The position numbers and the translations under genes were made by a program. This document shows positions 40,966-54,812 of a stretch of 64,000 nucleotides of DNA, piece after piece; position 1 is the first letter of the stretch, and each line of letters opens with the position of its first letter. The stretch is taken from NCBI RefSeq assembly GCF_000017185.1, contig NC_009635.1:498563-562562 (forward strand), in the 5' to 3' direction. This DNA comes from Methanococcus aeolicus Nankai-3 (GTDB lineage Archaea; AGJL01; Methanococci; Methanococcales; Methanococcaceae). The notes beneath the pieces were generated by a model that did not search any database, was not told where the DNA came from, and saw nothing but the letters and a program-made list of their open reading frames with translations.

Positions 40966-42081
40966 TTATTCATTCCTAAGTGCCTTTATTGGGTCTAATT
41001 TAGATGCCTTATATGCTGGATAAAGTGCAGAGATTAACGAAGTTGCTATTCCAAATAAAACTCCCAATATCACATAAACTAAACAATCCACCGTTAAAGA
41101 TGCTTTTAATAAATAACACACAATGAGGTAACCAATTCCCAAACTTAAAAATGCCCCAATAAAACTTCCTATAATGCCAAGTATTAGTGATTCATAAAGG
41201 AATATTATCATAATACTTTTTTTCGGAGCTCCGATACTTTTCATAACTCCAATTTCTTTTGTTCTTTCAATTGTGCTCATAAGCATTACATTTCCAATAC
41301 CTATTCCCGCAACCAATAGTGATATTCCTCCCATTCCCATTAAAAACATAGAAAGCATGTTCATGGCATCATTTACAGATTTAAGTATTGTATCCATTGA
41401 CAATATTATTACTTTCTTTTCTTTTTTGTTCATAATTAGTTCAGTTTCGTTTTTAATATTATTTATATTATCTTTATTTTTAACATAAAGCACAACCATT
41501 GAATAATTGCTCCCATAAAATCTATTGTATGTCTTTTGAGATAAAATGATGGAGTTTTGAGAAAGTATAAAAAATGAACTATTGTATATTCCCTTTATCC
41601 TATATGATATATTATTTATTGCAACGGCATCATTTTTATTAACTTCGTTAAAATCTGAAAACATACTATCCGCATAAACGGTTGTATCAGAAAGCTTATT
41701 ATCTACTCCCAAATTTAAATATTTAATATCTTCTTTTTTTATTCCGTAAATAGAAGCATATGTTTTTTTGTTTTTGCCTTTTATATAAATAATATCATTT
41801 TTTGTGCATATTGGTATTACAACACAGTCCAATTTTTTTAATTTAGTTATATCCTTTTTTGTAAAATGTAAATAACCTTCCCCAGAATTTGGAAATACCA
41901 CAACAAAATTAGCAACACCTTCAAAATTTTTGGATATCCCCTGCTTTAATCCGCCGCCCAATATGCCTAATGAGGATATAGCCATAACTCCAATAAGTAT
42001 TCCTAACAATGCTAAAAAACTTCTAAGTTTATGCCGTTTTAAATTCCTCTTAGCCATTTCAAAATACATGTTATTCCTCAT
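40966..42081 (-). CDS. MacB-type ABC transporter permease
   Basis: A protein of about 371 residues (start taken at ATG 42081; 42069 is also possible). One N-terminal helix (KLRSFLALLGILIGVMAISSLGILGGG) precedes a large extracellular MacB core of about 190 residues, followed by three helices (LLVAGIGIGNVMLMSTIERTKEIGVMKSIGAPKKSI is the FtsX motif). It is the permease of the exporter with the ATPase at 43012. It overlaps the membrane-protein gene upstream by about 10-20 bp. Location at the end of the small-peptide island suggests export or self-protection for these peptides. Confidence 0.86.
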   Translation of the reverse strand: MRNNMYFEMAKRNLKRHKLRSFLALLGILIGVMAISSLGILGGGLKQGISKNFEGVANFVVVFPNSGEGYLHFTKKDITKLKKLDCVVIPICTKNDIIYIKGKNKKTYASIYGIKKEDIKYLNLGVDNKLSDTTVYADSMFSDFNEVNKNDAVAINNISYRIKGIYNSSFFILSQNSIILSQKTYNRFYGSNYSMVVLYVKNKDNINNIKNETELIMNKKEKKVIILSMDTILKSVNDAMNMLSMFLMGMGGISLLVAGIGIGNVMLMSTIERTKEIGVMKSIGAPKKSIMIIFLYESLILGIIGSFIGAFLSLGIGYLIVCYLLKASLTVDCLVYVILGVLFGIATSLISALYPAYKASKLDPIKALRNE

Positions 42082-42955
42082 TTTTACCAATAATCTTAAA
42101 AGTCCGAATTAATGAAAGAAAAAATACCAAATATACAAGGTATTCCACTGAATCCACATGGTGATAATATATTGTAAATAATGTAAAAAATATTAACCCT
42201 AATGTTCCTGCTATAAATGAATTTAATAATACAATTTTCCAGCATTCTTTTAAAACACAATCTGTATTTAAATCTTTTTTAAAATTAAGATATATTGAAG
42301 CAGGAATAGACAGTAAGGCACCAATTACATAAATAAATATTTTAAATCCATTAAAATGGTCATAATCTCTGGGATAACCAAAATAATCAGGAGTAATAAA
42401 CACATTGGCCATCCAATACAATGGATAAGATATTAAAAACCATATTATTATGGAAATTGCAATTGTTTTTAGTTTTGATAAAAATGACATACTTTTATTC
42501 TGTAAATCATGTATTTTAAAAAACAAGCCCATTACTAAAACATACCCCATAACACCATCGGATAGATAAAACAAATCTATTGGTATATCTACATTCGTAT
42601 ATATTTTTAAAATATACATACCCATTTTTAAAATCATAAGCAATAATGTTATTTTTAATAAATACTTAATCAATATATTATTTTTTAATAAACCCCCTTT
42701 TATTTTTCTATTCTTAATCATAGGATTATTAATACTGTAATAAGATACTAAAAGCACAGCAAGTATTAAACCAAAAAACATGGCAAAATAGTTAATATCT
42801 ACAAATAGATAGTTGTAATATTCAGGGCTTTTAATGAATAATAACGAAAATAATATTTGGTTTCCAACAACACTAAACAAAAGCCATACCATAGCAGATA
42901 TAATAACTATTTTTTTAACATCAAATGACATACTATCCTTTTTAACATTAATCAT
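42071..42955 (-). CDS. Polytopic membrane protein in the exporter operon
   Basis: A 294-residue protein with about eight hydrophobic helices (VWLLFSVVGNQILFSLLFI, YFAMFFGLILAVLLVSYYS, GYVLVMGLFF, IWFLISYPLYWMANVFI, FIYVIGALLSIPASIYL, AGTLGLIFFTLFTIYY). The middle resembles Yip1-like membrane regions only vaguely and I assign no family. It lies between the ABC ATPase and the permease, so it probably belongs to the same exporter. Confidence 0.65.
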   Translation of the reverse strand: MINVKKDSMSFDVKKIVIISAMVWLLFSVVGNQILFSLLFIKSPEYYNYLFVDINYFAMFFGLILAVLLVSYYSINNPMIKNRKIKGGLLKNNILIKYLLKITLLLMILKMGMYILKIYTNVDIPIDLFYLSDGVMGYVLVMGLFFKIHDLQNKSMSFLSKLKTIAISIIIWFLISYPLYWMANVFITPDYFGYPRDYDHFNGFKIFIYVIGALLSIPASIYLNFKKDLNTDCVLKECWKIVLLNSFIAGTLGLIFFTLFTIYYHHVDSVEYLVYLVFFLSLIRTFKIIGKNEE

Positions 42956-43011
42956 AATCCCACCATGCTATTTTTTGTTGTATTTCTATTTTTTTCTATT
43001 TTATGACATTA

Positions 43012-43689
43012 CTACTCCTCAACTATTTTTCCATCCCTAATATCTATTATCCTATCGGCAACTTTTCCAACATTTATATCATGAGTAACTACAACAACGG
43101 TCTTTCCAGATTTGTTTAATTTTTTTAGGAGCTCCATAACTTTACCCCCAGTTTTTGAATCCAACGCCCCAGTTGGTTCATCGCACAATAGAACAGGTGC
43201 ATTATTTGCCAAAGCCCGAGCTATTGCCACTCTCTGTTGTTGTCCTCCGCTTAATTGGTTTGGTCTGTGGTTTGCAAATTGTTCATCTAATTCAGCCATT
43301 TTTAGACATTCCAGTGCTCTTTTTTGTTTTTCCTCTGAGCTCATTTCACTTCGGTATTTAAATATTAAGGGGAGCTCCACATTTTCCAATGCACTTAATA
43401 GGGGAATTAGATTAAACTGTTGAAATACAAATCCAATTTTCATTCTTCTAATTTCAGTTAATTGATTATCGTTTAAATCGTTGGTTTTTACATTATCTAT
43501 ATACACTTCTCCCTCATCTGGTTTGTCTAAGCATCCGATAATGTTTAATAGCGTAGATTTCCCGCTTCCACTTGGTCCCATAATTGCTACAAATTCCCCT
43601 TCATCTATTTTTAAACTTACATTATTTAGTGCGTAAATTGTTTCTCCACCTAAATTGTAGGATTTTACCACATTTTTTAATTCAATCAT
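43012..43689 (-). CDS. ABC transporter ATPase, LolD/MacB type
   Basis: A 225-residue ATPase. Walker A GPSGSGKSTLLN (residues about 38-49), Q-loop VFQQFNLIPLLSALENVELPL, signature LSGGQQQRVAIARAL and Walker B VLLCDEPTGALD are all intact. It powers the MacB-type permease downstream. It follows the secreted CARDB-like protein by 11 bp on the same strand. Confidence 0.93.
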   Translation of the reverse strand: MIELKNVVKSYNLGGETIYALNNVSLKIDEGEFVAIMGPSGSGKSTLLNIIGCLDKPDEGEVYIDNVKTNDLNDNQLTEIRRMKIGFVFQQFNLIPLLSALENVELPLIFKYRSEMSSEEKQKRALECLKMAELDEQFANHRPNQLSGGQQQRVAIARALANNAPVLLCDEPTGALDSKTGGKVMELLKKLNKSGKTVVVVTHDINVGKVADRIIDIRDGKIVEE

Positions 43690-43700
43690 TTTTTATCCCC

Positions 43701-45218
43701 TTATTCATTTTTTCTTACAAATCCCCTATATATTAGATAAATAACCCCAATACAGAATAAAACCCCAATTCCTATTATTATATAGTTAATGAATCCTCCA
43801 TTGCTTCCATAATTTTCATTATTACTTATTTGCCCATTTTCAGATATTGAAATATTTTTCTCCATTTTAATTAAATTATTATCTTCATCCCTATATGTAA
43901 TTATAATCGGAACCCCACTTACATTTTCATTAATTTGGCAGTGTAATTCAAAACTTCCATAATCATCAGCATTTAGTGTTCCTACGAAGTAGTTTTCATA
44001 AGGTCTTACAGGAATAATATCATCTGTTCTTTTAATGCTGACCAGTACACTTTTTGCTTTGGTAGTTCCTATGTTGGATAAATCCCCTGTAATAGTTTTT
44101 TCATTCATTCCCCCTACATTTACGCCCGTTAAAACTAATTGCACTTTTCCAATAACATTTATGGAAATATTTTTGTTTATCTCATTTCCATCAAAAATTA
44201 TTTTTATTGGAATTTCTTTAATGCCTATTTCGTTTATTTTTGTTTTAAAGGAAATATTTTCTTTTTCTCCGTGTTTGATAAATAAACTTTTTTGATTATT
44301 GCCCAAATAATATTTTCCAATTGTAATGATAAAATTAGCATCTTTATAGTTGTTCTTTATTGATAATGTAAAGTTATTTACCTCCCCCACAGGATAGTTG
44401 TATTTATTTACTTCCAATTCAACAACATTCTTTGGAATAACTTTAAATATTAAATTTCCAGTCTCTTCAACAATTTTTTGGTTTTTGTAATTATATGTGA
44501 TTGTATTGGAATCCCCTTGTTCTGTCTCTGTTTTATCGGTTAGTTGTAAATCATCATAAGGATTGCTGTGGGTTAATTTATAGGGTAGTTTTACAATACT
44601 ATCTCCACTTGCATAAATTTTAACATCCATTAGTCTTGTTTCACCAGGTTTTATATGGTCAATATATCCCTCTGATAAAGCATATATATGGTTGTCATCG
44701 TTGTTAAATTGCATTTTTATGTTTTGTGCTGTTCCTGTCCCTTTATTTGTTATTTTTAGGTAAATTTTATTTACTCCTTCGTTTATCGTTGGTGGGTTTT
44801 CGATTGTGATTGTTGGAGCTCCCCTAACTGGAATAGTAAATATCCTATTTTCTGAATATTGTTTATTATCCTCTGTGTAGTTGCAGTATGCCACAATTTT
44901 ATAATCCTTTGATGGTGCATCATCTTTAATTTTTATTATAAAATGCCCCACTCCTTTTTCAGATGGAAATAATTGTCCTTCACTGTCTTTTCCTTTGATT
45001 ATTTGTATATAATCTTTACTTTCTCCATAGGGATAAATACCTATTATAGTGTTGTTTATCTCTTTTTCTGGTGTAATTACAACCCACAAATCATAGGTTT
45101 TTGACGGCTCTAAATATTGATTTTTATAGTCAATGCTTGTAAATTCCACCGCATTTAATGTATTTAAAATTAAAAATAAAGATAAAATGGATAAAAAAAT
45201 AAAAAAAGATTTTTTCAT
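43701..45218 (-). CDS. Secreted membrane-anchored protein with repeated beta-sandwich domains
   Basis: A 505-residue protein. Residues 1-23 form a signal peptide (KKSFFIFLSILSLFLILNTLNAVE). The ectodomain has repeats such as ITIENPPTINEGVNKIYLKITNKGTGTAQNIKMQF and LVLTGVNVGGMNEKTITGDLSNIGTTKAKSVLVSI, as in COG1361/CARDB-like S-layer proteins. A transmembrane segment near the C-terminus (FINYIIIGIGVLFCIGVIYLIY) ends in RGFVRKNE. It precedes the exporter ATPase by 11 bp, so it is likely the extracellular part of the exporter, like accessory proteins of bacteriocin transporters. Confidence 0.8.
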   Translation of the reverse strand: MKKSFFIFLSILSLFLILNTLNAVEFTSIDYKNQYLEPSKTYDLWVVITPEKEINNTIIGIYPYGESKDYIQIIKGKDSEGQLFPSEKGVGHFIIKIKDDAPSKDYKIVAYCNYTEDNKQYSENRIFTIPVRGAPTITIENPPTINEGVNKIYLKITNKGTGTAQNIKMQFNNDDNHIYALSEGYIDHIKPGETRLMDVKIYASGDSIVKLPYKLTHSNPYDDLQLTDKTETEQGDSNTITYNYKNQKIVEETGNLIFKVIPKNVVELEVNKYNYPVGEVNNFTLSIKNNYKDANFIITIGKYYLGNNQKSLFIKHGEKENISFKTKINEIGIKEIPIKIIFDGNEINKNISINVIGKVQLVLTGVNVGGMNEKTITGDLSNIGTTKAKSVLVSIKRTDDIIPVRPYENYFVGTLNADDYGSFELHCQINENVSGVPIIITYRDEDNNLIKMEKNISISENGQISNNENYGSNGGFINYIIIGIGVLFCIGVIYLIYRGFVRKNE

Positions 45219-45227
45219 TATTTCACC

Positions 45228-45881
45228 TTATAAGAATTTAGCCACACTGTATAGCTGGTATGCCCCAAATAATACTGTTGGAATTAATGCAACTATAAAT
45301 GCTTTCTTTAACTCCAAATTCCTTGCATATTTTATTCCATAAGTCCATAAGCTCAAATTCCACAAACTAACTGCAATACCTACTAAAAGATTTGTATATA
45401 TCATTGTTTTTGGAAGTATTGAAGACATCACCTGTTTTACAACTGCTGGATTTTGGAGCTGTGCTACTGTTAATGTTGTAATATGAGCACTTGAAAGAAA
45501 ATAATAACCAATTGGTATGGTAATACATAGAGCAATTAAGTTTGCTATGAATCCATAGCCCGTAAATTCGAATGTTCTTTTAAATGAGCCCACTCCTTTG
45601 AATGCCATTGAAATTATATGCATAACTGCGGCTATTAATAACCATGATATAAATCCTCCTACTAGCGAAGATACTGCGGTAATTATTATCATCATTGACA
45701 TCATACCTTGCATATCTGATGGAAATATTTTAAACATTATTGATGTTGTATAGTAAGAATATGCCGACATTAACACTGAGAATATAAGAACTATGAGAAA
45801 AGGTGTTTTGAGAGATACTTCTTTATTTAATAGATATTTGAAAAAATCGTTTGGATTTAAGATTAGTTCTTTTAGGTTCAT
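45228..45881 (-). CDS. Yip1-family membrane protein, copy 1
   Basis: A 217-residue protein with five predicted helices: FLIVLIFSVLMSAYSYYT, MMIIITAVSSLVGGFISWLLIAAVMHII, KRTFEFTGYGFIANLIALCITIPIGYYFL, NLLVGIAVSLWNLSLWTYGIKYA and AFIVALIPTVLFGAYQLYSV. The N-terminus LKELILNPNDFFKYLL is typical of Yip1-domain proteins. A paralog is at 49310-49957. It is 9 bp upstream of the CARDB-like gene and follows a SpoIIM gene, so it is part of the island. Confidence 0.8.
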   Translation of the reverse strand: MNLKELILNPNDFFKYLLNKEVSLKTPFLIVLIFSVLMSAYSYYTTSIMFKIFPSDMQGMMSMMIIITAVSSLVGGFISWLLIAAVMHIISMAFKGVGSFKRTFEFTGYGFIANLIALCITIPIGYYFLSSAHITTLTVAQLQNPAVVKQVMSSILPKTMIYTNLLVGIAVSLWNLSLWTYGIKYARNLELKKAFIVALIPTVLFGAYQLYSVAKFL

Positions 45882-45950
45882 TTTCTCCCCTCTTTATTTT
45901 TTTAATAATTAATTGGTATTTAGTTATATTTAAATATTATGTTAATATAA

Positions 45951-46496
45951 TTATGTTAATAAATAATTTGCTATTTCTGGAGTAATATAAACCTCTACGA
46001 AAGCTGCTATAATTATTAATACTATTGAAATTAGTGCCAATTTTAAGAATTCTTTTATATCTTCTTCTGTTATTGGTTTTTCTTTCTTATCTAAGAGATA
46101 AAGAGTTATTTCATAAGGAATTTTAAAGCCAACTGCTCCTGCAATAATAAACCCTAAAAATTCAAAAATTGCATGAGGTATAACATAAGCAACAATATCG
46201 ATTAGTTTTACATTTGAAAGTAATATTGGAATTGATAATCCATTAAAGAATAATATATAAAATGTTGATAATCCAAATGTTAACGAGCCTAATAAAAGCA
46301 TTAAATATACTTTTAAGTTATTTTTTAATATTAAGATAAATTCTTCCAAATTTGATATTTTCTGATGTTTTAGAAGATTATTATTTTCTAAATTTGAATT
46401 GGTTGGTTGTTGATTGATATATATTCCACATAATACGCCTATTATTATACATGATAGAGACATAAATATACAAAATTTGTTTTTAATTGTTCTCAT
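45951..46496 (-). CDS. SpoIIM/DUF95 membrane protein, copy A
   Basis: A protein of about 181 residues; the start at ATG 46496 (MRTIKNK) follows TTGAGGCACA. Helices: FMSLSCIIIGVLCGIYI, NNLKVYLMLLLGSLTFGLSTFYILFFNGLSI, IVAYVIPHAIFEFLGFIIAGAVGFKIPYEI, and ALISIVLIIIAAFVEVYITPEIANYLL. PHAIFE is the family signature motif. DUF95 proteins are conserved in circular-bacteriocin clusters, where they are needed for maturation or export. Three more copies lie in this window. Confidence 0.85.
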   Translation of the reverse strand: MRTIKNKFCIFMSLSCIIIGVLCGIYINQQPTNSNLENNNLLKHQKISNLEEFILILKNNLKVYLMLLLGSLTFGLSTFYILFFNGLSIPILLSNVKLIDIVAYVIPHAIFEFLGFIIAGAVGFKIPYEITLYLLDKKEKPITEEDIKEFLKLALISIVLIIIAAFVEVYITPEIANYLLT

Positions 46497-46533
46497 ATTG
46501 TGCCTCAACAAAAATTACTATTTGATACTACTC

Positions 46534-46956
46534 CTACATATAAAATACATATAAAATAATTGCTACAACCGTTAATAAACTAGTAATAAAAATTATCCCT
46601 AAATTTTTTTTAAATTGAATCCTACTTGGAGTTTCTTCATTTGAACTATTTTCTCCAACCTTAGATAAAGTATTACATAACATCATAATCATTAAATTCA
46701 TCATTAAAATCAGTGCGGATATACCCAGTATTCCATTTGCTCCAATTGGGTCACTTTCAGAAATCATCCAACTAAGAATCCCCAATGCTATACACATCAT
46801 TATAGTTATGCTCGAAAACATAAATATGCGACTTATAATAAAATGAAATGGCATGTTAATCCATTTTTTTTGTATATAATAAAATACGCATAACACGATA
46901 CTAACAGCAATAAATGTTATTATTACTGTTGTATTAGGGTAATTCATTAAATCCAT
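46534..46956 (-). CDS. Small four-helix membrane protein, copy A
   Basis: About 140 residues with four hydrophobic helices (VIITFIAVSIVLCVFYYIQKK, IISRIFMFSSITIMMCIALGIL, GANGILGISALILMMNLMIMM, IIFITSLLTVVAIILYVFYM). ATG 46956 follows GGTGATATA. It stands between the secreted-peptide gene (38 bp or so upstream) and SpoIIM, the place of a candidate immunity protein. It is similar in layout but not obviously in sequence to 48121 and 50546. Function unproven. Confidence 0.62.
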   Translation of the reverse strand: MDLMNYPNTTVIITFIAVSIVLCVFYYIQKKWINMPFHFIISRIFMFSSITIMMCIALGILSWMISESDPIGANGILGISALILMMNLMIMMLCNTLSKVGENSSNEETPSRIQFKKNLGIIFITSLLTVVAIILYVFYM

Positions 46957-47007
46957 TATATCACCATTATACAAAATAAAAAAATAAAAAACTATTAAAA
47001 TGGGTGA

Positions 47008-47328
47008 TTATTTCATTAAAACATACGCACTTACCGTACTTGATACGCCAGCAGCAAATACTACTGCACCAATGCCTGATGCAATAGAAGGGATAGCAAA
47101 TATCGATATCACTGACCCTGCAAAAGCCATATCTTGTAATTTTCCCATAAGTCTGTCATACTCGTTTTTGGTTATTTTTCCCTCATCATACAATTTTTGA
47201 GTATATGCTCCAATTTTTCCATCTGATAACTTGCTAATTTCAGACACTGCAGCAGGTGTAGCAAACACAGCTCCCACCATACAAACCATAGCAATAGCAG
47301 CGAAACCTTTAAGTAAGTTTAACTTCAT
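47008..47328 (-). CDS. Secreted peptide precursor 1 (candidate bacteriocin-like)
   Basis: A 106-residue protein. Residues 1 to about 24 (KLNLLKGFAAIAMVC plus GAVFA) form a signal peptide with a likely cut after AVFA. The mature part of about 80 residues is charged at first (KLYDEGKITKNEYDRLMGKL) and then strongly hydrophobic (AFAGSVISIFAIPSIASG then IGAVVFAAGVSSTVSAYVL). The N-terminal 25 residues are nearly identical to those of two other precursors at 48617 and 51066 while the mature parts differ. The hydrophobic helical core recalls circular bacteriocins such as AS-48; this is inference. Confidence 0.75.
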   Translation of the reverse strand: MKLNLLKGFAAIAMVCMVGAVFATPAAVSEISKLSDGKIGAYTQKLYDEGKITKNEYDRLMGKLQDMAFAGSVISIFAIPSIASGIGAVVFAAGVSSTVSAYVLMK

Positions 47329-47576
47329 AGCTTATTCACCTCCTTTATGGTGGTTAAGTGTTCATTCGGTTGGCTCCGAACATCTGGCACATGTTCATCA
47401 TCGCCAACCTTTTTTCATTTTTCCTTAATGTTTTTAAATAGTGTTTTAATATTTTCTTTAATACCCATATAATTTTTCATTTTTTTCATAACAATAATTA
47501 ATGAAAACTACTATATATATATATATAACGATTTGAATTAAATAGTAAAGTATTTATACGGCAATAGGTTTCCTAA
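47329..47576 (-). promoter_or_regulatory. Conserved promoter and structured 5' leader, copy 1
   Basis: About 250 bp upstream of peptide gene 1, nearly repeated at 48917 and 51450. Read on the minus strand: a TATAAATA box near 47553-47560, a second run of TATATATA near 47516-47528, then a leader ending in GGAGGTGAATAAGC before the ATG. The leader holds a hairpin GGTTGGC ... GAACA ... TGTTC ... GCCAACC (about 47374-47414) some 40-80 nt before the start. This could control translation of the peptide genes. Confidence 0.7.
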
Positions 47577-47580
47577 TTCC

Positions 47581-48108
47581 TTATTTATTTAATAAATAAT
47601 TAGCAATTTTAGGAGTAATATAAACCTCTACGAAAGCTGCTATGATTATTAATACTATTGAAATTAGTGCCAATTTTAGGAATTCTTTTATATCTTCTTC
47701 TGTTATTGGTTTTTCTTTCTTATCTCTTAGATACTGAATAACTTCATACGGGATTTTAAAACCTGCTACTGCTGATATAAGCATTGCTGGAATTTCAAAT
47801 ATACCGTGTGGAATTACTGTTATAATCACAAAAAACCAATTTTTTATTAATGCTAATGCTTTGTATTGAATTGCTAGTGCAAATCCATTATATAATAAAT
47901 TACAAATTACTGGGATTAAAAAAATACCCCCTACTAAATTATAAAACACTATTTTAATATTATTAACTAAAATTCCAAAAAATGAATAGGTCGGTAAAAC
48001 ACTGCATGAATTTATAGATGTACTTTTGAATATATCAAGCGGTATGAATAAACCATAAATAAATCCTATTATGAATAACACGATAGGTAATGTTTTATAT
48101 ATTTTCAT
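47581..48108 (-). CDS. SpoIIM/DUF95 membrane protein, copy B
   Basis: A 175-residue paralog. MKIYKTLPIVLFIIGFIYGLFI is the first helix; VIPHGIFEIPAMLISAVAGFKIPYEVIQYL has the family motif; the C-terminal IKEFLKLALISIVLIIIAAFVEVYITPKIANYLL is almost identical to copy A. Follows the membrane gene at 48121 by 12 bp. The high similarity of its 3' end to those of the other copies suggests recent duplication or gene conversion. Confidence 0.84.
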   Translation of the reverse strand: MKIYKTLPIVLFIIGFIYGLFIPLDIFKSTSINSCSVLPTYSFFGILVNNIKIVFYNLVGGIFLIPVICNLLYNGFALAIQYKALALIKNWFFVIITVIPHGIFEIPAMLISAVAGFKIPYEVIQYLRDKKEKPITEEDIKEFLKLALISIVLIIIAAFVEVYITPKIANYLLNK

Positions 48109-48120
48109 AGTATTCCACTA

Positions 48121-48576
48121 TCAAATTTTTTCAATAAATATATTTAACACACGATATCCCATAGAAAAACAAACTCCTCCTCCATAACTTATTATAAATA
48201 TTAAAATTATACTTTCTGTCTGCGTATATGTCATAGGAAATACAATTAAATATTTAATAACTATTGCTGAAAATATAACAACTAATGGAATTAAAAATAA
48301 AATTATTTTAAAAAACTTTTCTAAATTATTTTTTTCAAATATTACATACTTATCATCTTTATTTACTAAATATTTTGAAGAATAAAGACCAATTAGCATA
48401 CCAATTGCAATGAACATTGTTGAAATATCAAATATATTTTTTAATAAACCCCAGCCATAATTTAACCAGAAATTAAAAACTAGTATGGGAACTATCCATA
48501 ATAATAAACCTTCAATCATTAAAGTTATTCCAACAATAATTGGATTATTTATATATGAGTGTGTAATATCTTTCAT
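48121..48576 (-). CDS. Small four-helix membrane protein, copy B
   Basis: About 151 residues; ATG 48576 follows GGTGATATTT. Four to five hydrophobic helices (VGITLMIEGLLLWIVPILVFNFWL, MFIAIGMLIGLYS, IILFLIPLVVIFSAIVIKYLIVF, IILIFIISYGGGVCF). It is between peptide gene 2 and SpoIIM copy B, the same place as copies A and C. A candidate immunity partner for peptide 2. Not recognised as a named family. Confidence 0.62.
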   Translation of the reverse strand: MKDITHSYINNPIIVGITLMIEGLLLWIVPILVFNFWLNYGWGLLKNIFDISTMFIAIGMLIGLYSSKYLVNKDDKYVIFEKNNLEKFFKIILFLIPLVVIFSAIVIKYLIVFPMTYTQTESIILIFIISYGGGVCFSMGYRVLNIFIEKI

Positions 48577-48616
48577 AAATATCACCAAAAAATAAAATTA
48601 AAATAAAATATGGGTA

Positions 48617-48916
48617 TTATAAAGCAATTCCACCTACTATCATAGGTATTCCAACAATAGCACCTGCTCCTGTGCAGCATGCGGCAGCGCCACCTGTTAT
48701 TAAAGCACCTGAGACTATTATATGTTCTGGAGCTAAAAATGCGTTTACTCCCAATAATGTCTTTCCTGTGGTGGAACCGTGGTATGCTTCATCAGCACTG
48801 TGTGCGAGTTCATATCCAGTATATGCAGAATTAAGGACAGAAGGGGTAGCAAACACAGCTCCTACCATGCAAAGCATAGCCACAGCAGCGAAACCTTTAA
48901 GTAAGTTTAACTTCAT
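48617..48916 (-). CDS. Secreted peptide precursor 2 (candidate bacteriocin-like)
   Basis: A 99-residue protein. The signal peptide (KLNLLKGFAAVAMLC plus GAVFA) matches precursors 1 and 3 almost exactly. The mature part is SVLNSAYTGYELAHSADEAY followed by hydrophobic and Gly-rich helix-forming sequence (HIIVSGALITGGAAACC then TGAGAIVGIPMIVGGIAL), including an adjacent Cys-Cys. The ORF ends directly in the hydrophobic stretch. Downstream membrane and SpoIIM genes complete the cassette. Role as a secreted toxin or bacteriocin is inference from context. Confidence 0.75.
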   Translation of the reverse strand: MKLNLLKGFAAVAMLCMVGAVFATPSVLNSAYTGYELAHSADEAYHGSTTGKTLLGVNAFLAPEHIIVSGALITGGAAACCTGAGAIVGIPMIVGGIAL

Positions 48917-49162
48917 AGTTTGTTCGCCTCCATTATGGTGGTTAAGTGTTCATTCGGTTGGCTCCGAACATTCCCTCAAATGTTCATCATCGCCAACCTT
49001 TTTTCATTTTTCCTTAATGCTTTTAAAGAGTGTTTTAATATTTTCTTTATTATCCCTATAATTTTTCATTTTTTTCATATTATTAATAAATGAAAACTAC
49101 TATATATATATATATAACGATTTGAATTAAATAGAAAAATATTTATACGGCAATAGGTTTCC
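48917..49162 (-). promoter_or_regulatory. Conserved promoter and structured 5' leader, copy 2
   Basis: Almost the same as the regions at 47329 and 51450: TATAAATA box, a long TATATATA run, and the hairpin with GGTTGGC and GCCAACC arms. In this copy the sequence between the arms has a few changes (GAACATTTGAGGGAATGTTC) that keep the inner stem. The GGAGGCGAACAAAC ribosome site precedes the ATG. Confidence 0.7.
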
Positions 49163-49173
49163 TAATGCTCTAT

Positions 49174-49275
49174 CTATTTTAATATTATATTTGCTATTTC
49201 TGGTGTAATATATACTTCTACAAATGCGGCAATGATTATATTATTGATAGGGATGCTAATTTTAGTTAAAAACAT
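49174..49275 (-). pseudogene. SpoIIM C-terminal fragment
   Basis: The minus strand encodes only the last 32 residues or so of a SpoIIM copy (IIIAAFVEVYITPEIANIILK and stop). It sits between Yip1 copy 2 and the leader of peptide gene 2. It is the expected leftover of recombination between SpoIIM gene ends, and shows that the cassettes arose by duplication and loss. Confidence 0.7.
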
Positions 49276-49309
49276 TTAGAAATTTTTTATATTTTTCTCA
49301 TTTGTGGTT

Positions 49310-49957
49310 TTAGCCAAATATAATAGTTAACAACTGCAAACTTATTAATAATAGTAATATCATTATTGTAAGAGATAATGATTTTAAAAATTTTACACAA
49401 TATAGCTGTTTTAACCCCTCTGCCCAAAGTAATGAGCTCCAAATACATGAGATAATATTAATTAAGATTAATACATAATATACTTCATTAGGAATTAATG
49501 CTTCACTTACTGCAAGTAAATATTGCGGATGATTTTGAATAACATGTATTATTTCTGGAGAAATATTATACATACAAGCAAGCCATATAATTAAATAGGC
49601 AATGTTTCCAAATATTATTGGTAAGAATCCATAGCCAACAATTTCTAATGTTTTCTTGAAATTTCCAATTTTTTTAAATAATAGTTTTGCACCAATCCAA
49701 AATATAGAGGTTATTATAAATAATAATAAAAAAGATATACAAACTCCAAAAACAAAAAACATTACAAGCATAGTCAATATAATAATCTTTTCATCATTTT
49801 GAAATATATTCCAAAATCTTAAATATGGTAAAGATGATTGTAAGAATATAGTAAGTCCAAATACTAATGTAATAAATATTGGAATTTTTAGATTATGTTT
49901 ATTTTTTACAGTTTTTTCAAAAAATATTTTGGGAGTTAGTAAAATACTTTTTATCAT
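49310..49957 (-). CDS. Yip1-family membrane protein, copy 2
   Basis: A 215-residue paralog of the protein at 45228, with the same order of helices: IPIFITLVFGLTIFLQSS, IILTMLVMFFVFGVCISFLLLFIITSIFWIG, KKTLEIVGYGFLPIIFGNIAYLII, ILINIISCIWSSLLWAEGLKQL, LSLTIMILLLLISLQLLTII. It follows SpoIIM copy C by 6 bp. Only cassettes A and C carry a Yip1 gene. Confidence 0.8.
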   Translation of the reverse strand: MIKSILLTPKIFFEKTVKNKHNLKIPIFITLVFGLTIFLQSSLPYLRFWNIFQNDEKIIILTMLVMFFVFGVCISFLLLFIITSIFWIGAKLLFKKIGNFKKTLEIVGYGFLPIIFGNIAYLIIWLACMYNISPEIIHVIQNHPQYLLAVSEALIPNEVYYVLILINIISCIWSSLLWAEGLKQLYCVKFLKSLSLTIMILLLLISLQLLTIIFG

Positions 49958-49963
49958 AATTCA

Positions 49964-50530
49964 TCACCTTATTAACTTTAATAAAATATTTGCTATTTTT
50001 GGAGTAATATATACTTCCACATAAGCCGCTATAACAATTAAAAAAATAGATATAAATGCCAATTTTAAGAACTCTTTAATATCTTCCCCTGTTATTGGTT
50101 TTTCTTTTTTATCTAAGAGATAAAGAGTTATTTCGTAAGGAATTTTAAAGCCTGCCGCCCCTGCAATAAACATCGCAGGAATCTCGAAGATTCCATGTGG
50201 AACAATATATAAAAAAGATTGCGTGTCAAAATCAGAAAGGAGTATTGAGTTACATATGCCATTAATAAACAATCCAATAAATGTTGTTATTCCAAAGGAT
50301 AAAAAACCTAAAACAAGAATAAATGTGGATTTGAGATTATTGATAAGTATTGAAATGAAATTATTAAAATTTGAGATATTTCCTCTAACATTATTCTCTT
50401 TTGATAGTGGTTGATCGCTATCATCCAATGAAATATTTATTAATTCCCCAAATACTATCCCTAAAATAAACGAACTGATTGATAGTATAATACAATACTT
50501 GTTTTTGATTATTAAATTTAGAACTTTCAT
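49964..50530 (-). CDS. SpoIIM/DUF95 membrane protein, copy C
   Basis: A protein of about 188 residues (start at ATG 50530; ATG 50542 is an alternative). IILSISSFILGIVFGELI is the first helix, FGITTFIGLFINGICNS the second, and VPHGIFEIPAMFIAGAAGFKIPYEITLYLLDKKEKPITGEDIKEFLKLAFISIFLIVIAAYVEVYITPKIAN carries the motif and the C-terminus shared with copies A and B. Cassette: peptide 3, membrane protein, this gene, Yip1. Confidence 0.84.
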   Translation of the reverse strand: MKVLNLIIKNKYCIILSISSFILGIVFGELINISLDDSDQPLSKENNVRGNISNFNNFISILINNLKSTFILVLGFLSFGITTFIGLFINGICNSILLSDFDTQSFLYIVPHGIFEIPAMFIAGAAGFKIPYEITLYLLDKKEKPITGEDIKEFLKLAFISIFLIVIAAYVEVYITPKIANILLKLIR

Positions 50531-50545
50531 AAATCTTCCCATCGT

Positions 50546-51007
50546 TCATTTGTCCAATACTTTTTTTAATATAATCATCTTAGATAAAGCTAACAGTAAT
50601 GAGAGATATGCCATTAATTCCCACCAGGGAAAATTTGGTTCGAGATTTAGTGTATAATAGATACCCATAATCATAAACACGATACTAGTGCATATTATCG
50701 AATGAATATCCCTTAAATATTCTTCTAAAATCTTCTTTTGAGATTTATCATGGTGAGATATTTTTACAGGTGTAATAAATACGGAGACGATATTATCATC
50801 AACGTGAGATATTTTTATATATGTGATAAATGTAGTGACAATCGTAGCAATCATGATAATTGTATTGAGAATGATGGGTAATATTAAATCTTGAACTATA
50901 TAATAAACTTCAAAAGTTATTGTTAGTAAGCATAATAGGCATAATTCAATGAGTGGGGCATTACAAATAGTTAATAGTATTTTTTTTATTTTTTTGATAA
51001 ATTTCAA
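50546..51007 (-). CDS. Small membrane protein, copy C
   Basis: A 153-residue protein with about four hydrophobic helices (LCLLCLLTITFEVYYIVQDL, NTIIMIATIVTTFITYI, SIICTSIVFMIMGIYYTL, WWELMAYLSLLLALSKMIIL) and a cytoplasmic charged linker that contains a tandem-like repeat (ISHVDDNIVSVFITPVKISHHD). It takes the same place as copies A and B between peptide and SpoIIM. Candidate immunity protein; the differing sequences fit specificity for different peptides, which is inference. Confidence 0.62.
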   Translation of the reverse strand: MKFIKKIKKILLTICNAPLIELCLLCLLTITFEVYYIVQDLILPIILNTIIMIATIVTTFITYIKISHVDDNIVSVFITPVKISHHDKSQKKILEEYLRDIHSIICTSIVFMIMGIYYTLNLEPNFPWWELMAYLSLLLALSKMIILKKVLDK

Positions 51008-51065
51008 AATCCCACCAATTATTAAAATTTAAAAAATATATGAAATTTAATAAAAAATATGAGAA

Positions 51066-51449
51066 TCACCAATAAAGACCACTAGCAATCCTCCTAATAG
51101 AGTATGTAGCAGTAAATGTCCAATAACCAACTCGCAATTTTCCCCCATTACGTACCTCGTCGATGAATCCTGCAAGGTCTTTAGCATCATCTTTGTCAAG
51201 ATATGGGCTTTTAGTTAGTCCGCCAGTAGCATCAGCCATGCTTTTCCACATATTCATGTATTTTTCTAGTTTAGCTTTGTTTTCCGGTGTAACTTCACCA
51301 CTATCATAGGCTGCTTTAGTATATTGAAAATATACATTTTTTGTAACTCCATTTTGGAAATTATTTGAAGTCATAGGTGTAGCAAACACAGCTCCTACCA
51401 CACATAGCATGGCAACAGCAGCGAAACCTTTAAGTAAGTTTAACTTCAT
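51066..51449 (-). CDS. Secreted peptide precursor 3 (candidate bacteriocin-like)
   Basis: A 127-residue protein with the shared signal peptide (KLNLLKGFAAVAMLC plus GAVFA). The mature part of about 103 residues is more hydrophilic than those of peptides 1 and 2: charged middle (YFQYTKAAYDSGEVTPENKAKLEKYMNMW) and an aromatic, basic end (LRVGYWTFTATYSIRRIASGLYW). It therefore may not be a circular bacteriocin; it could be a different secreted effector using the same export cassette. Confidence 0.72.
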   Translation of the reverse strand: MKLNLLKGFAAVAMLCVVGAVFATPMTSNNFQNGVTKNVYFQYTKAAYDSGEVTPENKAKLEKYMNMWKSMADATGGLTKSPYLDKDDAKDLAGFIDEVRNGGKLRVGYWTFTATYSIRRIASGLYW

Positions 51450-51742
51450 AGCCTATTCACCTCCTTTAAGTTTTTAAGGGAGTAAGTTCCAAAGGCTCAG
51501 AACCTATAAATGTTCATCACAGCCAAAGGGTTGGCTCCGAACATCTCGCACATGTTCATCATCGCCGACCTTTTATTTTTCATTTTTCCTAAATACTTTT
51601 AAAGTGTGTTTTAATATTTTTTTTATTACCCCCCATAATTTTTCATTTTTTTCATAACAATAATTAATGAAAACACCTACATATATATATATATAACGAT
51701 TTGAATTAAATAGAAAAATATTTATACGGCAATAAGTTTCCT
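51450..51742 (-). promoter_or_regulatory. Conserved promoter and structured 5' leader, copy 3
   Basis: Third copy of the region before the peptide genes. The TATAAATA and TATATATA runs and the GGTTGGC-type hairpin are kept, but an extra segment of about 40 bp (near 51476-51520, including TTGGCTGTGATGAACATT) is present, which looks like a partial duplication of the hairpin. The ribosome site is GGAGGTGAATAGGC. Confidence 0.68.
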
Positions 51743-51744
51743 AA

Positions 51745-52419
51745 TGCCTTAGTTATTTAATATTAAATCTGCTATCACCTGAATGAAATGAAGGTGAGCT
51801 ATAAAACTCGAAGAGTTTTATTCAATTTTTGGTGTAATATAAACTTCTACGAAAGAAACTTCTACGAAAGCGACTATAACGATTAATATTATTGAAATTA
51901 AAGCTAATTTTAAGAATTCTTTTGTATCTTCTTCCGTTAGTGGTTTTTCTTTTCGCTTGCTACGCAAGCGAGCAACGAAAACCAAAGATTTTCGTCTAAT
52001 TTATCCATTAAATATTGGATAACTTCATACGGTATTTTAAAACCTGCCACTGCTGATATAAGCATTGCTGGAATTTCAAATATGCCATGTGGAAGGATTA
52101 AACCAGCAATAAGTTTTAACGGTTCATTAGTTTGAAAAGTAGAACCAATTAAAACGCCAACATTAAAACCATTAAATATTAAGTTTATAAAAGTAGATAA
52201 ACCGAAGGTTATAGAACCTGCCAACATTAAAAAGATAACTTTTAAATTATTTATTAAAATTGTAGGAAATTTGAATTTTATATTTAACTTTTGATTTATT
52301 TCTTCTCCTTTGTAGTTTTTTGAAAAGTCGTTTATGAATAAGTCGTTTATGAATATAATGACTGAGATGAAACCTATTGAGAAGATTAGGATTGTTAGTA
52401 TCGATGGTAGTTTTTTCAT
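51745..52419 (-). pseudogene. SpoIIM/DUF95 gene, copy D, broken by palindromic insertions
   Basis: The first 140 or so residues are intact (SILTILIFSIGFISVIIFI, then ILPHGIFEIPAMLISAVAGFKIPYEVIQYLMDKLDE), but the frame then runs into inserted DNA and stops at 51937. Compared with copies A-C, about 45 bp including CGCTTGC-TAC-GCAAGCG and a second hairpin (near 51952-51994) has entered just before the KEKPITEED region. A second insert with ATAAAACTC-GAA-GAGTTTTAT lies at about 51779-51822, and a 15-bp stretch (AAACTTCTACGAAAG) is duplicated. The decayed C-terminal part is still readable in other frames. No peptide gene precedes this copy. Confidence 0.8.
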
Positions 52420-52443
52420 GGTTTCACAAATTATTGTAATTAA

Positions 52444-52638
52444 TTATAAGTTGTCATTAGTTCTAAAAAATTTAATAAAAAATATTGTTATCTTTAATAA
52501 AATCATAATAACTAATAATCCCATAATCAATGTTTTATAATGGGATTCTAAATTAAACATTAAAATAAGAAGAATTCCAAATAATATATACCAAATATGC
52601 CAATATAATTTACGATATGTTTTTTTATTGTTGTTCAT
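52444..52638 (-). CDS. Short membrane protein, remnant of cassette D
   Basis: From ATG 52638 about 64 residues with two hydrophobic helices (YWHIWYILFGILLILMFNL and LIMGLLVIMILLKITIFFI). The longer frame to 52680 would begin in the end of an IS remnant. It is half the size of the other cassette membrane proteins and stands before the broken SpoIIM copy D. Probably a decaying gene; expression is doubtful. Confidence 0.45.
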   Translation of the reverse strand: MNNNKKTYRKLYWHIWYILFGILLILMFNLESHYKTLIMGLLVIMILLKITIFFIKFFRTNDNL

Positions 52639-52667
52639 AGTTTTCCCCAATAAAGAAAAAATATATT

Positions 52668-53292
52668 TAGTATGGGTCAAAATATATATAACCTATACTA
52701 AATATAATATTATAAAAAAGACGATATTATGAAGGCTGAGGAAGTGGTAAATTGAACAAAAACCTAACGGTTTTTGTAGCTCTTCGCTCCTTCGGAAAGA
52801 TAGGATATAACAGTGAAGGAATGTTTAAAGGCTTTAAATTACATTTAGCAGTAGATAAGTTAGGAATACCATTAAGAATAGAATTTACCACAGGAAATAC
52901 TCATGATTATAAAGTAGCTGATAAATTATTAGTATGCACTAAGAAATCATGTGCAGATGCAGGCTATGATAAAAGATTTAAAAAAGTGATGGAATTATAC
53001 GAAAACGAACGGATAACTGCCCACAATTCAAGAAGATTAGTGGGGAAGAAAAATAAAAAGAAGCTTCCCAAATTGATATCTAAGAATTAGGGTTAAAATA
53101 GAACATACCAATTCCATATTAAAAAACAGATTTATGAATAAGTATTGGATTAATATCAAAGGTTATATTCTTAAAAAAGTATTCTGTCTCTGTGCAGTAG
53201 TTTCTGCACAGGTTTTAGCATTATATAACCTCATTATGTGGTTATCCTTATATGAAAGTCTTAGAGGTTAGAGTGTAATATGATCCATACTA
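52668..53292 (+). mobile_element. Degenerate IS element, DDE transposase (IS5/IS4-like)
   Basis: Imperfect inverted ends TAGTATGGGTCA (52668) and TGATCCATACTA (53281). The transposase reads from about 52729 but is broken: a stop soon after MKAEEVVN, then an insertion of a hairpin (ACAAAAACC-TAAC-GGTTTTTGT at 52757-52778). The best frame is 52752-53090, containing GMFKGFKLHLAVDKLGIPLRIEFTTGNTHDYKVADKLL and DAGYDKRFKKVMEL, typical of DDE transposases; the C-terminal part continues in other frames to about 53270. It is too short for an active element. It has landed just upstream of cassette D and may have removed its peptide gene. Confidence 0.75.
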
Positions 53293-54199: not shown

Positions 54200-54812
54200 T
54201 GATAAATTTTTAAAGTAGCTATTAACGATTTGGAAATAAATCCATGTGACATTACCGTCTTAACCGATAGAGAGTTTAAAGACTTTGAAATAATAAAAAT
54301 TTTTGAACGATATGGTTGCAATTACATAAGTTTTATTCCGAAAAATATTAAGGTTAAATACTATCTCGAGTATGGATATAAAAAAGAGGGGGATTGGAAG
54401 TTCAATTACTTTATTGACTACAAAACTATTCCAAAATTAGTTATTGCAGAAGACGAGATAATTACAAACAACGAAAGAAAAAAGTATATTATACCTTTTT
54501 AACCAACATAGACTTCGAAAATTCAAAATCCTATATAAACATATAAAAAACGATGGAACATCGAAACAAGATTTAGAATGCTTAAAGATGTAATTATAAA
54601 AACGAATATCCTCTCTAAAAGCTAAGTTGTTCCTTTTTATGATTAGATGCGTTATTCATAATTTATGGATTAAAATACGAAATGAAAAAGAAAGTGAAAG
54701 TATGTCTCTAAAATTCCTCATCATCGAAGTGGGTAATCTATTAGCTAAATTTGATTATTTAAATGTAGTTATGAGTAATACTCAGTTGTGCATGTTTAAT
54801 GCATATTCGTAG
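54200..54812 (+). pseudogene. Second IS transposase remnant
   Basis: Frames at 54230-54502 (DITVLTDREFKDFEIIKIFERYGCNYISFIPKNIKVKYYL) and then IYKKRWNIETRFRMLKDV and a C-terminal part near 54635-54800 (YDMIRCVIHNLWI) together resemble a DDE transposase of a different type from the one at 52.7 kb. Several frameshifts and stops separate the parts. The stretch 53876-54200 to its left holds two GGAGCTCC copies and no gene that I can read. Confidence 0.6.

Follow-up and report, generated by a model that had tools for sequence, protein, structure and literature searches.

Secreted-peptide cassettes with SpoIIM proteins in Methanococcus aeolicus: a probable bacteriocin-like system of the Methanococcales

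The gene clusters of circular bacteriocins all encode a SpoIIM (DUF95) protein, which is treated as class-defining (PMC6131525, PMC13289728), and the corresponding immunity proteins are described as small, hydrophobic and cationic (PMC6131525). In the AS-48 cluster, the DUF95 protein As-48C is accompanied by As-48EFGH, an ATP-binding cassette (ABC) transporter for self-protection (PMC3942455). Bacillus is protected from the SDP toxin by YknWXYZ, which consists of a Yip1 protein, a membrane fusion protein, an ATPase and a MacB-like permease (PMC4887032). For archaea, the accessible parts of two accounts present arCOG01996 clusters with a SalXY-like ABC transporter as a predicted membrane-associated defence (Makarova et al. 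2014, PMC4158269) and assign three- or four-gene cassettes found in Methanococci, Archaeoglobi and Thermococci to membrane remodelling (Makarova et al. 2015, PMC5898192). Here, we describe an island of Methanococcus aeolicus Nankai-3 (Methanococcales) that lies in a window of 64,000 nt (NC_009635.1, positions 498,563 to 562,562) of the single, 1,569,500-base contig of this genome. The island comprises three intact cassettes, each encoding a precursor peptide, a small transmembrane (TM) protein and SpoIIM, as well as a decayed fourth cassette, two Yip1 genes and a terminal operon. It is probably a multi-cassette bacteriocin-like system of the Methanococcales, a reading that leaves the circularity of the peptides open. 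The genes of the intact cassettes, in window coordinates, are:

51066..51449, minus strand: cassette 1 secreted precursor, 127 aa, leader and polar 104-aa mature part
50546..51007, minus strand: cassette 1 small 4-TM protein, putative cognate immunity protein
49964..50542, minus strand: cassette 1 SpoIIM/DUF95 (PF01944)
49310..49957, minus strand: cassette 1 Yip1 protein (PF04893, 1.8e-17)
48617..48916, minus strand: cassette 2 secreted precursor, 99 aa, hydrophobic mature part
48121..48588, minus strand: cassette 2 small 4-TM protein
47581..48108, minus strand: cassette 2 SpoIIM/DUF95 (PF01944)
47008..47328, minus strand: cassette 3 secreted precursor, 106 aa
46534..46974, minus strand: cassette 3 small 4-TM protein
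45951..46511, minus strand: cassette 3 SpoIIM/DUF95 (PF01944)

The best evidence for putative cognate immunity is the co-inheritance of peptides and TM proteins. Among 32 cassettes, compared after removal of the conserved first nine residues, 10 of the 11 pairs of homologous TM proteins were accompanied by homologous peptides as well, compared to a mean of 0.7 and a maximum of 5 in 5000 label permutations run at a slightly lower threshold. Of the ten coupled pairs, four stemmed from orthologous loci in one genus and six from different species, some even from different families, as exemplified by the pair G011/G030 (peptides 66% and TM proteins 71% identical across two families). The coupling is one-sided, since peptides are sometimes alike where the TM proteins differ. 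Most TM proteins had 2–4 TM helices, none matched a signalling domain, and with a net positive charge in 30 of 32 cases and a median grand average of hydropathy (GRAVY) of 0.91, they are small, cationic and hydrophobic, in line with the immunity proteins of circular bacteriocins. Each peptide's neighbouring TM protein, small and cationic, is thus its probable cognate immunity protein.

The SpoIIM genes provide the second link to circular bacteriocins. The copies in the three intact cassettes matched PF01944 with E values of about 1e-26 and adjoin the precursor genes, as in circular-bacteriocin clusters; all four SpoIIM matches of the genome fall inside the island. A tblastn search of 72,556 plasmids with the cassette SpoIIM matched seven records. 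We examined four of these loci, the others being a second Staphylococcus simulans record, Nonomuraea and Halomicrococcus. All three bacterial loci examined contained annotated circular or cyclic bacteriocins beside the SpoIIM match: a peptide of the uberolysin/carnocyclin family in Staphylococcus aureus, four tandem uberolysin/circularin peptides together with YIP1 in Priestia megaterium and a putative cyclic bacteriocin in S. simulans. By contrast, the housekeeping paralog, a different DUF95 protein that is usually single-copy and was next to HMG-CoA reductase at both loci examined, matched only Methanosphaera among the plasmids, at no bacteriocin locus. Similarly, the cassette-SpoIIM profile scored 73 bits (Priestia) and 55 bits (S. 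aureus), compared to 38 and 25 bits for the housekeeping profile. The fourth locus is archaeal, on plasmid pMETHO01 of Methanomethylovorans hollandica (L101/L146), to which the window Yip1 alone also leads (E 1e-28). It combines two 66-aa hydrophobic peptides (95% identical) with a TM protein, SpoIIM, Yip1, a 400-aa protein, an ATPase and a MacB permease, and represents a further candidate archaeal circular bacteriocin; a viperin gene lies nearby, and a sequence search of PDB with the 66-aa peptide returned nothing meaningful. By analogy with circular bacteriocins, SpoIIM would act on the peptide at the membrane, most likely in maturation, possibly by head-to-tail closure, and/or in self-protection. 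Circularity itself is inferred from SpoIIM only.

Precursors 1–3 share a leader of 25 residues, MKLNLLKGFAA[VI]AM[LV]C[MV]VGAVFA^TP, with a signal-peptidase-like end (VFA before TP), and the precursor leaders generally look like Sec signal peptides. Each cassette would yield one pre-peptide, whose Sec-like leader is cut after ...VFA or ...LVA to release a mostly hydrophobic peptide of about 50–105 residues outside the cell. By searching 40 relatives with the upstream block described below, which revealed further arrays, we collected 33 small peptides. Their mature parts were 53–104 residues long, with a median GRAVY of 0.6 and a median charge of −3. A start of [ET][PS]V..G[DN] was present in 21 of the 33, the last six residues were uncharged in 29, and many were rich in GxxxG. 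In the window, the peptide of cassette 1 is polar (51066, GRAVY −0.65) and those of cassettes 2 and 3 are hydrophobic (48617, 0.73; 47008, 0.35), which corrects a preliminary description of this DNA in which peptides 1 and 2 were hydrophobic and peptide 3 polar. The family leader was also observed on larger proteins. At L039:2193-2720 (G027), it precedes, together with a weaker kink-turn hairpin, a 175-aa protein with a pre-toxin-like stretch GEDLYHFATGQKYNGWGLAFDVITLIPLAKVLKAV and no Pfam match. Secreted proteins of about 240–390 aa with the same leader type and a kink-turn in the 5′ untranslated region (UTR), and without SpoIIM, were found at L028:5207, L037:8338, L040:5417, L084:1520, L085:2227 and L087:2051, several of them followed by small multi-TM proteins.

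The three cassettes resemble each other in their flanks. They share a 5′ region of about 250–350 bp of promoter and UTR plus the leader, present in three copies:

51371..51758, minus strand: repeated 5′ block (promoter, kink-turn UTR, ribosome-binding site, leader), copy 1
48838..49179, minus strand: repeated 5′ block, copy 2
47250..47590, minus strand: repeated 5′ block, copy 3

DNA identity between cassettes was 92% in the leader, compared to about 52% for shuffled sequences, 71–87% in the upstream block and 69–78% in the C-terminal half of spoIIM, and was at or near the shuffled level in the mature peptide, the TM protein and the N-terminal half of SpoIIM. Protein identities were 78–80% for the C-terminal and 27–42% for the N-terminal half of SpoIIM, and 4–12% for the TM protein. 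Given the leader identity and the E values with which the upstream block matched its two other copies in the genome (9e-99 and 3e-91), these repeats are not due to chance. Conserved flanks around an unrelated core are the pattern that cassette (core) exchange leaves. Recombination through the 5′ block and the 3′ half of spoIIM could swap the peptide/TM core and so diversify the arsenal.

Behind cassette 3, the island continues into the terminal operon, whose Yip1 gene closes this cassette just as another Yip1 gene (PF04893) closes cassette 1:

45228..45881, minus strand: terminal-operon Yip1 protein (PF04893, 3.2e-25; YknW family NF052650, 1.8e-7, below curated cut-off)
43701..45218, minus strand: secreted CARDB-like protein, C-terminally anchored, in the membrane-fusion-protein position of YknWXYZ (CARDB E 9e-4, below Pfam cut-off)
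43012..43689, minus strand: ABC ATPase
42071..42955, minus strand: 8-TM protein, no family
40966..42090, minus strand: MacB/FtsX-type permease

The operon shares with YknWXYZ the Yip1 protein, an extracellular anchored partner, the ATPase and the MacB-like permease. It differs in that the partner is CARDB-like in place of a membrane fusion protein, in the extra 8-TM protein and in the linked SpoIIM cassettes. Its Yip1 matched the NCBIfam YknW model with a score of 30.9 (E 1.8e-7) against a cut-off of 110. The MacB operon had been proposed as the peptide exporter. Given its likeness to YknWXYZ and As-48EFGH and the Sec-like leaders of the precursors, which would make a dedicated exporter unnecessary, we instead read it as protection, more likely an immunity or efflux pump than an exporter. 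Yip1, CARDB-like protein, ATPase, TM protein and MacB would then form a shared pump that clears peptide from the membrane. In another genome (G005, L167:7504-10377) that lacks cassette SpoIIM and precursors, Yip1, CARDB and ATPase are kept, possibly an orphan protection module such as a resistant non-producer might have.

Cassette-type SpoIIM was present in 15 of 36 Methanococcales genomes. In relatives, genes for Yip1, CARDB, ATPase and MacB usually come after the last cassette, this operon is retained in two families, and many cassette copies are broken. About 27 of the 33 small precursors have an adjacent SpoIIM, intact or broken. Analogous cassettes were found in Archaeoglobi and a Thermococci metagenome-assembled genome (in a scan of named genomes), and on the Methanomethylovorans plasmid. 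Those of Archaeoglobi have a different leader (MYAVRxWxEE...WLAVGMCLAM...) and often also encode a divergent Yip1. In the Archaeoglobi-like locus L107, the core of a Methanococcales peptide stands behind an Archaeoglobi-type leader (66% identity over 70 residues). This junction points to leader and core being distinct modules joined at ..GD. The contigs of L107 and L118, both with Archaeoglobi-type cassettes, are binned as Arcobacter and Desulfurellaceae, respectively, and are probably mis-binned.

The precursor UTRs contain one or two kink-turn hairpins, often in tandem. Those of the island are:

51529..51571, minus strand: cassette 1 kink-turn hairpin a, 5′ UTR (E 3e-16)
51490..51528, minus strand: cassette 1 second kink-turn hairpin b, box C/D-like GUGAUGA/CUGA (E 2.6e-9)
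48956..48999, minus strand: cassette 2 kink-turn hairpin (E 1.5e-16)
47368..47410, minus strand: cassette 3 kink-turn hairpin (E 4e-17)

The hairpin (GGUUGGC-GAU-GA-U-GAACAU...AUGUUC-G-GA-GCCAACC) has the architecture of a kink-turn: a canonical (C) stem, a 3-nt bulge, tandem G-A/A-G pairs and a non-canonical (NC) stem with covariation. In 21 distinct hairpins, the tandem G-A columns were conserved in 20, 21, 21 and 21 sequences, and 90% of the pair cells were paired, compared to 72.6% after shuffling. The covariation score of 0.458 (0.170 for shuffled sequences) was reached in none of 500 shuffles, and slid controls gave at most 0.156. Folding z-scores were −3.7 and −3.9 for cassettes 2 and 3 and weaker for cassette 1 (−1.7, with another minimum). 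A covariance model (at least one site with E below 1e-6) recovered all 15 genomes that have cassette-type SpoIIM; in the other Methanococcales searched, it matched nothing apart from C/D-box small RNAs (sRNAs). As kink-turn and cassette SpoIIM are parts of one locus, their shared distribution does not count as independent evidence. Five weaker sites corresponded to the C/D-box sRNAs sR39 or sR3. The C/D motif of such sRNAs is itself a kink-turn, and their recovery is therefore an independent check on the model. Nearly all strong sites lay ahead of a gene with the family leader; exceptions were L028:9699, L088 and L089, where the gene has no leader, L090:4032, where the leader is decayed, and L090:42, at a contig end. 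At L028:9699, L088:1919 and L089:3068, the hairpin precedes a protein family that has no leader (MGSFALWYFGYDYKYEKRF...) and is in part frameshifted. No match was found in the Archaeoglobi, Thermococci and plasmid loci, so that the element looks like a Methanococcales feature. An earlier interpretation of the hairpin as a selenocysteine insertion sequence (SECIS) element was dropped, given its location in the 5′ UTR and the absence of any matching Rfam model. In several species, a CCACC sequence pairs with the ribosome-binding site GGUGG just downstream. In archaea, L7Ae binds 5′-UTR kink-turns and represses translation (PMC5539422, PMC6298567), which suggests L7Ae control of precursor translation as a natural guess. 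Precursor synthesis is probably tuned by the one or two hairpins, as in archaeal mRNAs under L7Ae kink-turn autoregulation, where a kink-turn likewise precedes the start codon in the 5′ UTR. The kink-turns described here differ in that they precede secreted peptides, are often in tandem and have a predicted link to L7Ae.

Decayed parts of the island are a fourth cassette upstream of cassette 1 and a SpoIIM remnant:

52444..52680, minus strand: decayed cassette 4 small TM protein
51818..52419, minus strand: decayed cassette 4 SpoIIM, interrupted near 51940-51990 by a palindromic insertion
49175..49239, minus strand: SpoIIM C-terminal remnant, between cassettes 1 and 2

The palindrome TCGCTTGCGTAGCAAGCGA at 51940-51990 has one copy within the window, and transposase fragments adjoin the island at 52752-53090 and 54230-54502. 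An Rfam scan of the island matched no family, and PADLOC returned only generic ABC and permease matches. The gene layout in the preliminary description held up well: three minus-strand units of precursor, small membrane protein and SpoIIM, Yip1 in two of them (49310-49957 and 45228-45881), a decaying fourth unit (SpoIIM at 51937-52419), a SpoIIM fragment near 49174 and a last unit running into the terminal operon were all found, albeit with a weak CARDB match (E 9e-4).

Taken together, the co-inheritance of peptides and TM proteins, the SpoIIM relatives found in annotated clusters of circular bacteriocins, the YknW-like Yip1, the properties of the TM proteins and the recurrence in archaea favor a bacteriocin-like reading, and the island probably works like a circular-bacteriocin system, with membership by analogy. 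Like the clusters of AS-48, uberolysin/circularin A and carnocyclin, it encodes a small hydrophobic precursor, SpoIIM/DUF95, a small cationic hydrophobic TM protein and a MacB-type protection ABC transporter; several cassettes per pump and the kink-turn UTR set it apart from them. Several observations weigh against this reading. The archaeal peptides matched no bacteriocin family in Pfam or NCBIfam (PF09221 and PF16942 included), and aligning uberolysin-type bacterial circular bacteriocins with the archaeal precursors by hhalign gave nothing. AlphaFold models of the precursors were too uncertain for a fold search (predicted local distance difference test scores, pLDDT, of 53–55). The peptides are mostly anionic, unlike the cationic circular bacteriocins of the AS-48 type, and to our knowledge, a Sec-type leader is not found in circular bacteriocins. 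Furthermore, the island's sole ABC operon is protection-like, with no second, secretion ABC transporter found in the island, and neither the YknW nor the CARDB match reaches its curated cut-off. A SpoIIM tree with long branches did not resolve the grouping, and the profile contest was used instead. The preliminary description had named in advance, as evidence against it, homologs that regularly lack the DUF95 and membrane genes. Both genes accompany most small precursors; an adjacent SpoIIM is missing for about 6 of 33, as it is for larger secreted proteins with the same leader. Its proposal that the island makes, exports and protects against several peptides is supported as regards production and protection, with MacB less likely the exporter.

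The peptides might be linear, Sec-secreted, pore-forming bacteriocins (glycine-zipper, SDP-like), with SpoIIM in protection or folding and no cyclisation. This is a version of the bacteriocin-like reading, part of whose likelihood it shares, and we consider it a serious possibility that falls short of probable: the Sec-type leader, the GxxxG-rich mature parts, the YknW-like Yip1 of the SDP pump and the lack of a dedicated exporter fit it, whereas the description of SpoIIM in all circular-bacteriocin clusters does not. The far-reaching proposal of head-to-tail circular bacteriocins in archaea, made from Sec-secreted precursors and cyclised with SpoIIM but no dedicated exporter, in core-swapping arrays whose expression is set by L7Ae and tandem kink-turns, appears doubtful as a whole.

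Other readings do without killing. With the cognate TM proteins as their receptors, the peptides could be signals (pheromones) or markers for kin recognition, as hypervariable peptide/TM pairs suit recognition as well as killing and the same choice has been posed for another archaeal peptide locus (PMC6393860). However, cationic TM proteins of mostly 2–4 helices without a signalling domain make this improbable, and both SpoIIM and the YknW-like pump suggest that a toxin is being handled. A system for membrane remodelling or vesicles, in which SpoIIM, Yip1 and the small TM proteins shape membranes, could draw on the membrane-shaping relatives of Yip1 and SpoIIM and on the naming of the same cassettes, in the accessible part of that account, as arCOG01996 cassettes (Makarova et al. 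2015, PMC5898192). It leaves unexplained why each cassette has one hypervariable secreted peptide coupled to one TM protein and why SpoIIM relatives lie inside annotated circular-bacteriocin loci, and we regard it as highly improbable. Hardly credible, finally, are dispersed selfish repeats, with the conserved flanks as a mobile element and the cores as passengers: transposase remnants border the island, a palindrome has inserted and relatives carry many broken copies, but the cores are open, their order is conserved, peptide/TM pairs are coupled and two families have retained the terminal operon.

The bacteriocin-like reading also bears on the earlier archaeal accounts. As far as their accessible parts go, the arCOG01996 cassettes of Methanococci, Archaeoglobi and Thermococci, with SpoIIM, Yip1, small TM proteins and a SalXY-like ABC transporter nearby, are most likely the same class of loci, and these parts do not mention precursors, a link to circular bacteriocins or the UTR element. 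A literature search for archaeal circular bacteriocins, which did not cover a 2019 mBio review of archaeal antimicrobial peptides, found none. Provisionally, then, the precursors, the bacteriocin link and the covarying kink-turn UTR are new.

Circular bacteriocins have been described from bacteria, where the role of SpoIIM is not settled. Archaeal cassettes with a Sec-type leader separate export from maturation and could therefore allow SpoIIM function to be studied in a setting that lacks a dedicated exporter. Through the UTR element, mRNAs for secreted conflict peptides would join those archaeal mRNAs that are under kink-turn control. If the bacteriocin-like reading is true, the cassettes would provide dozens of natural peptide/immunity pairs and represent a peptide weapon for methanogens of hot vents and sediments.

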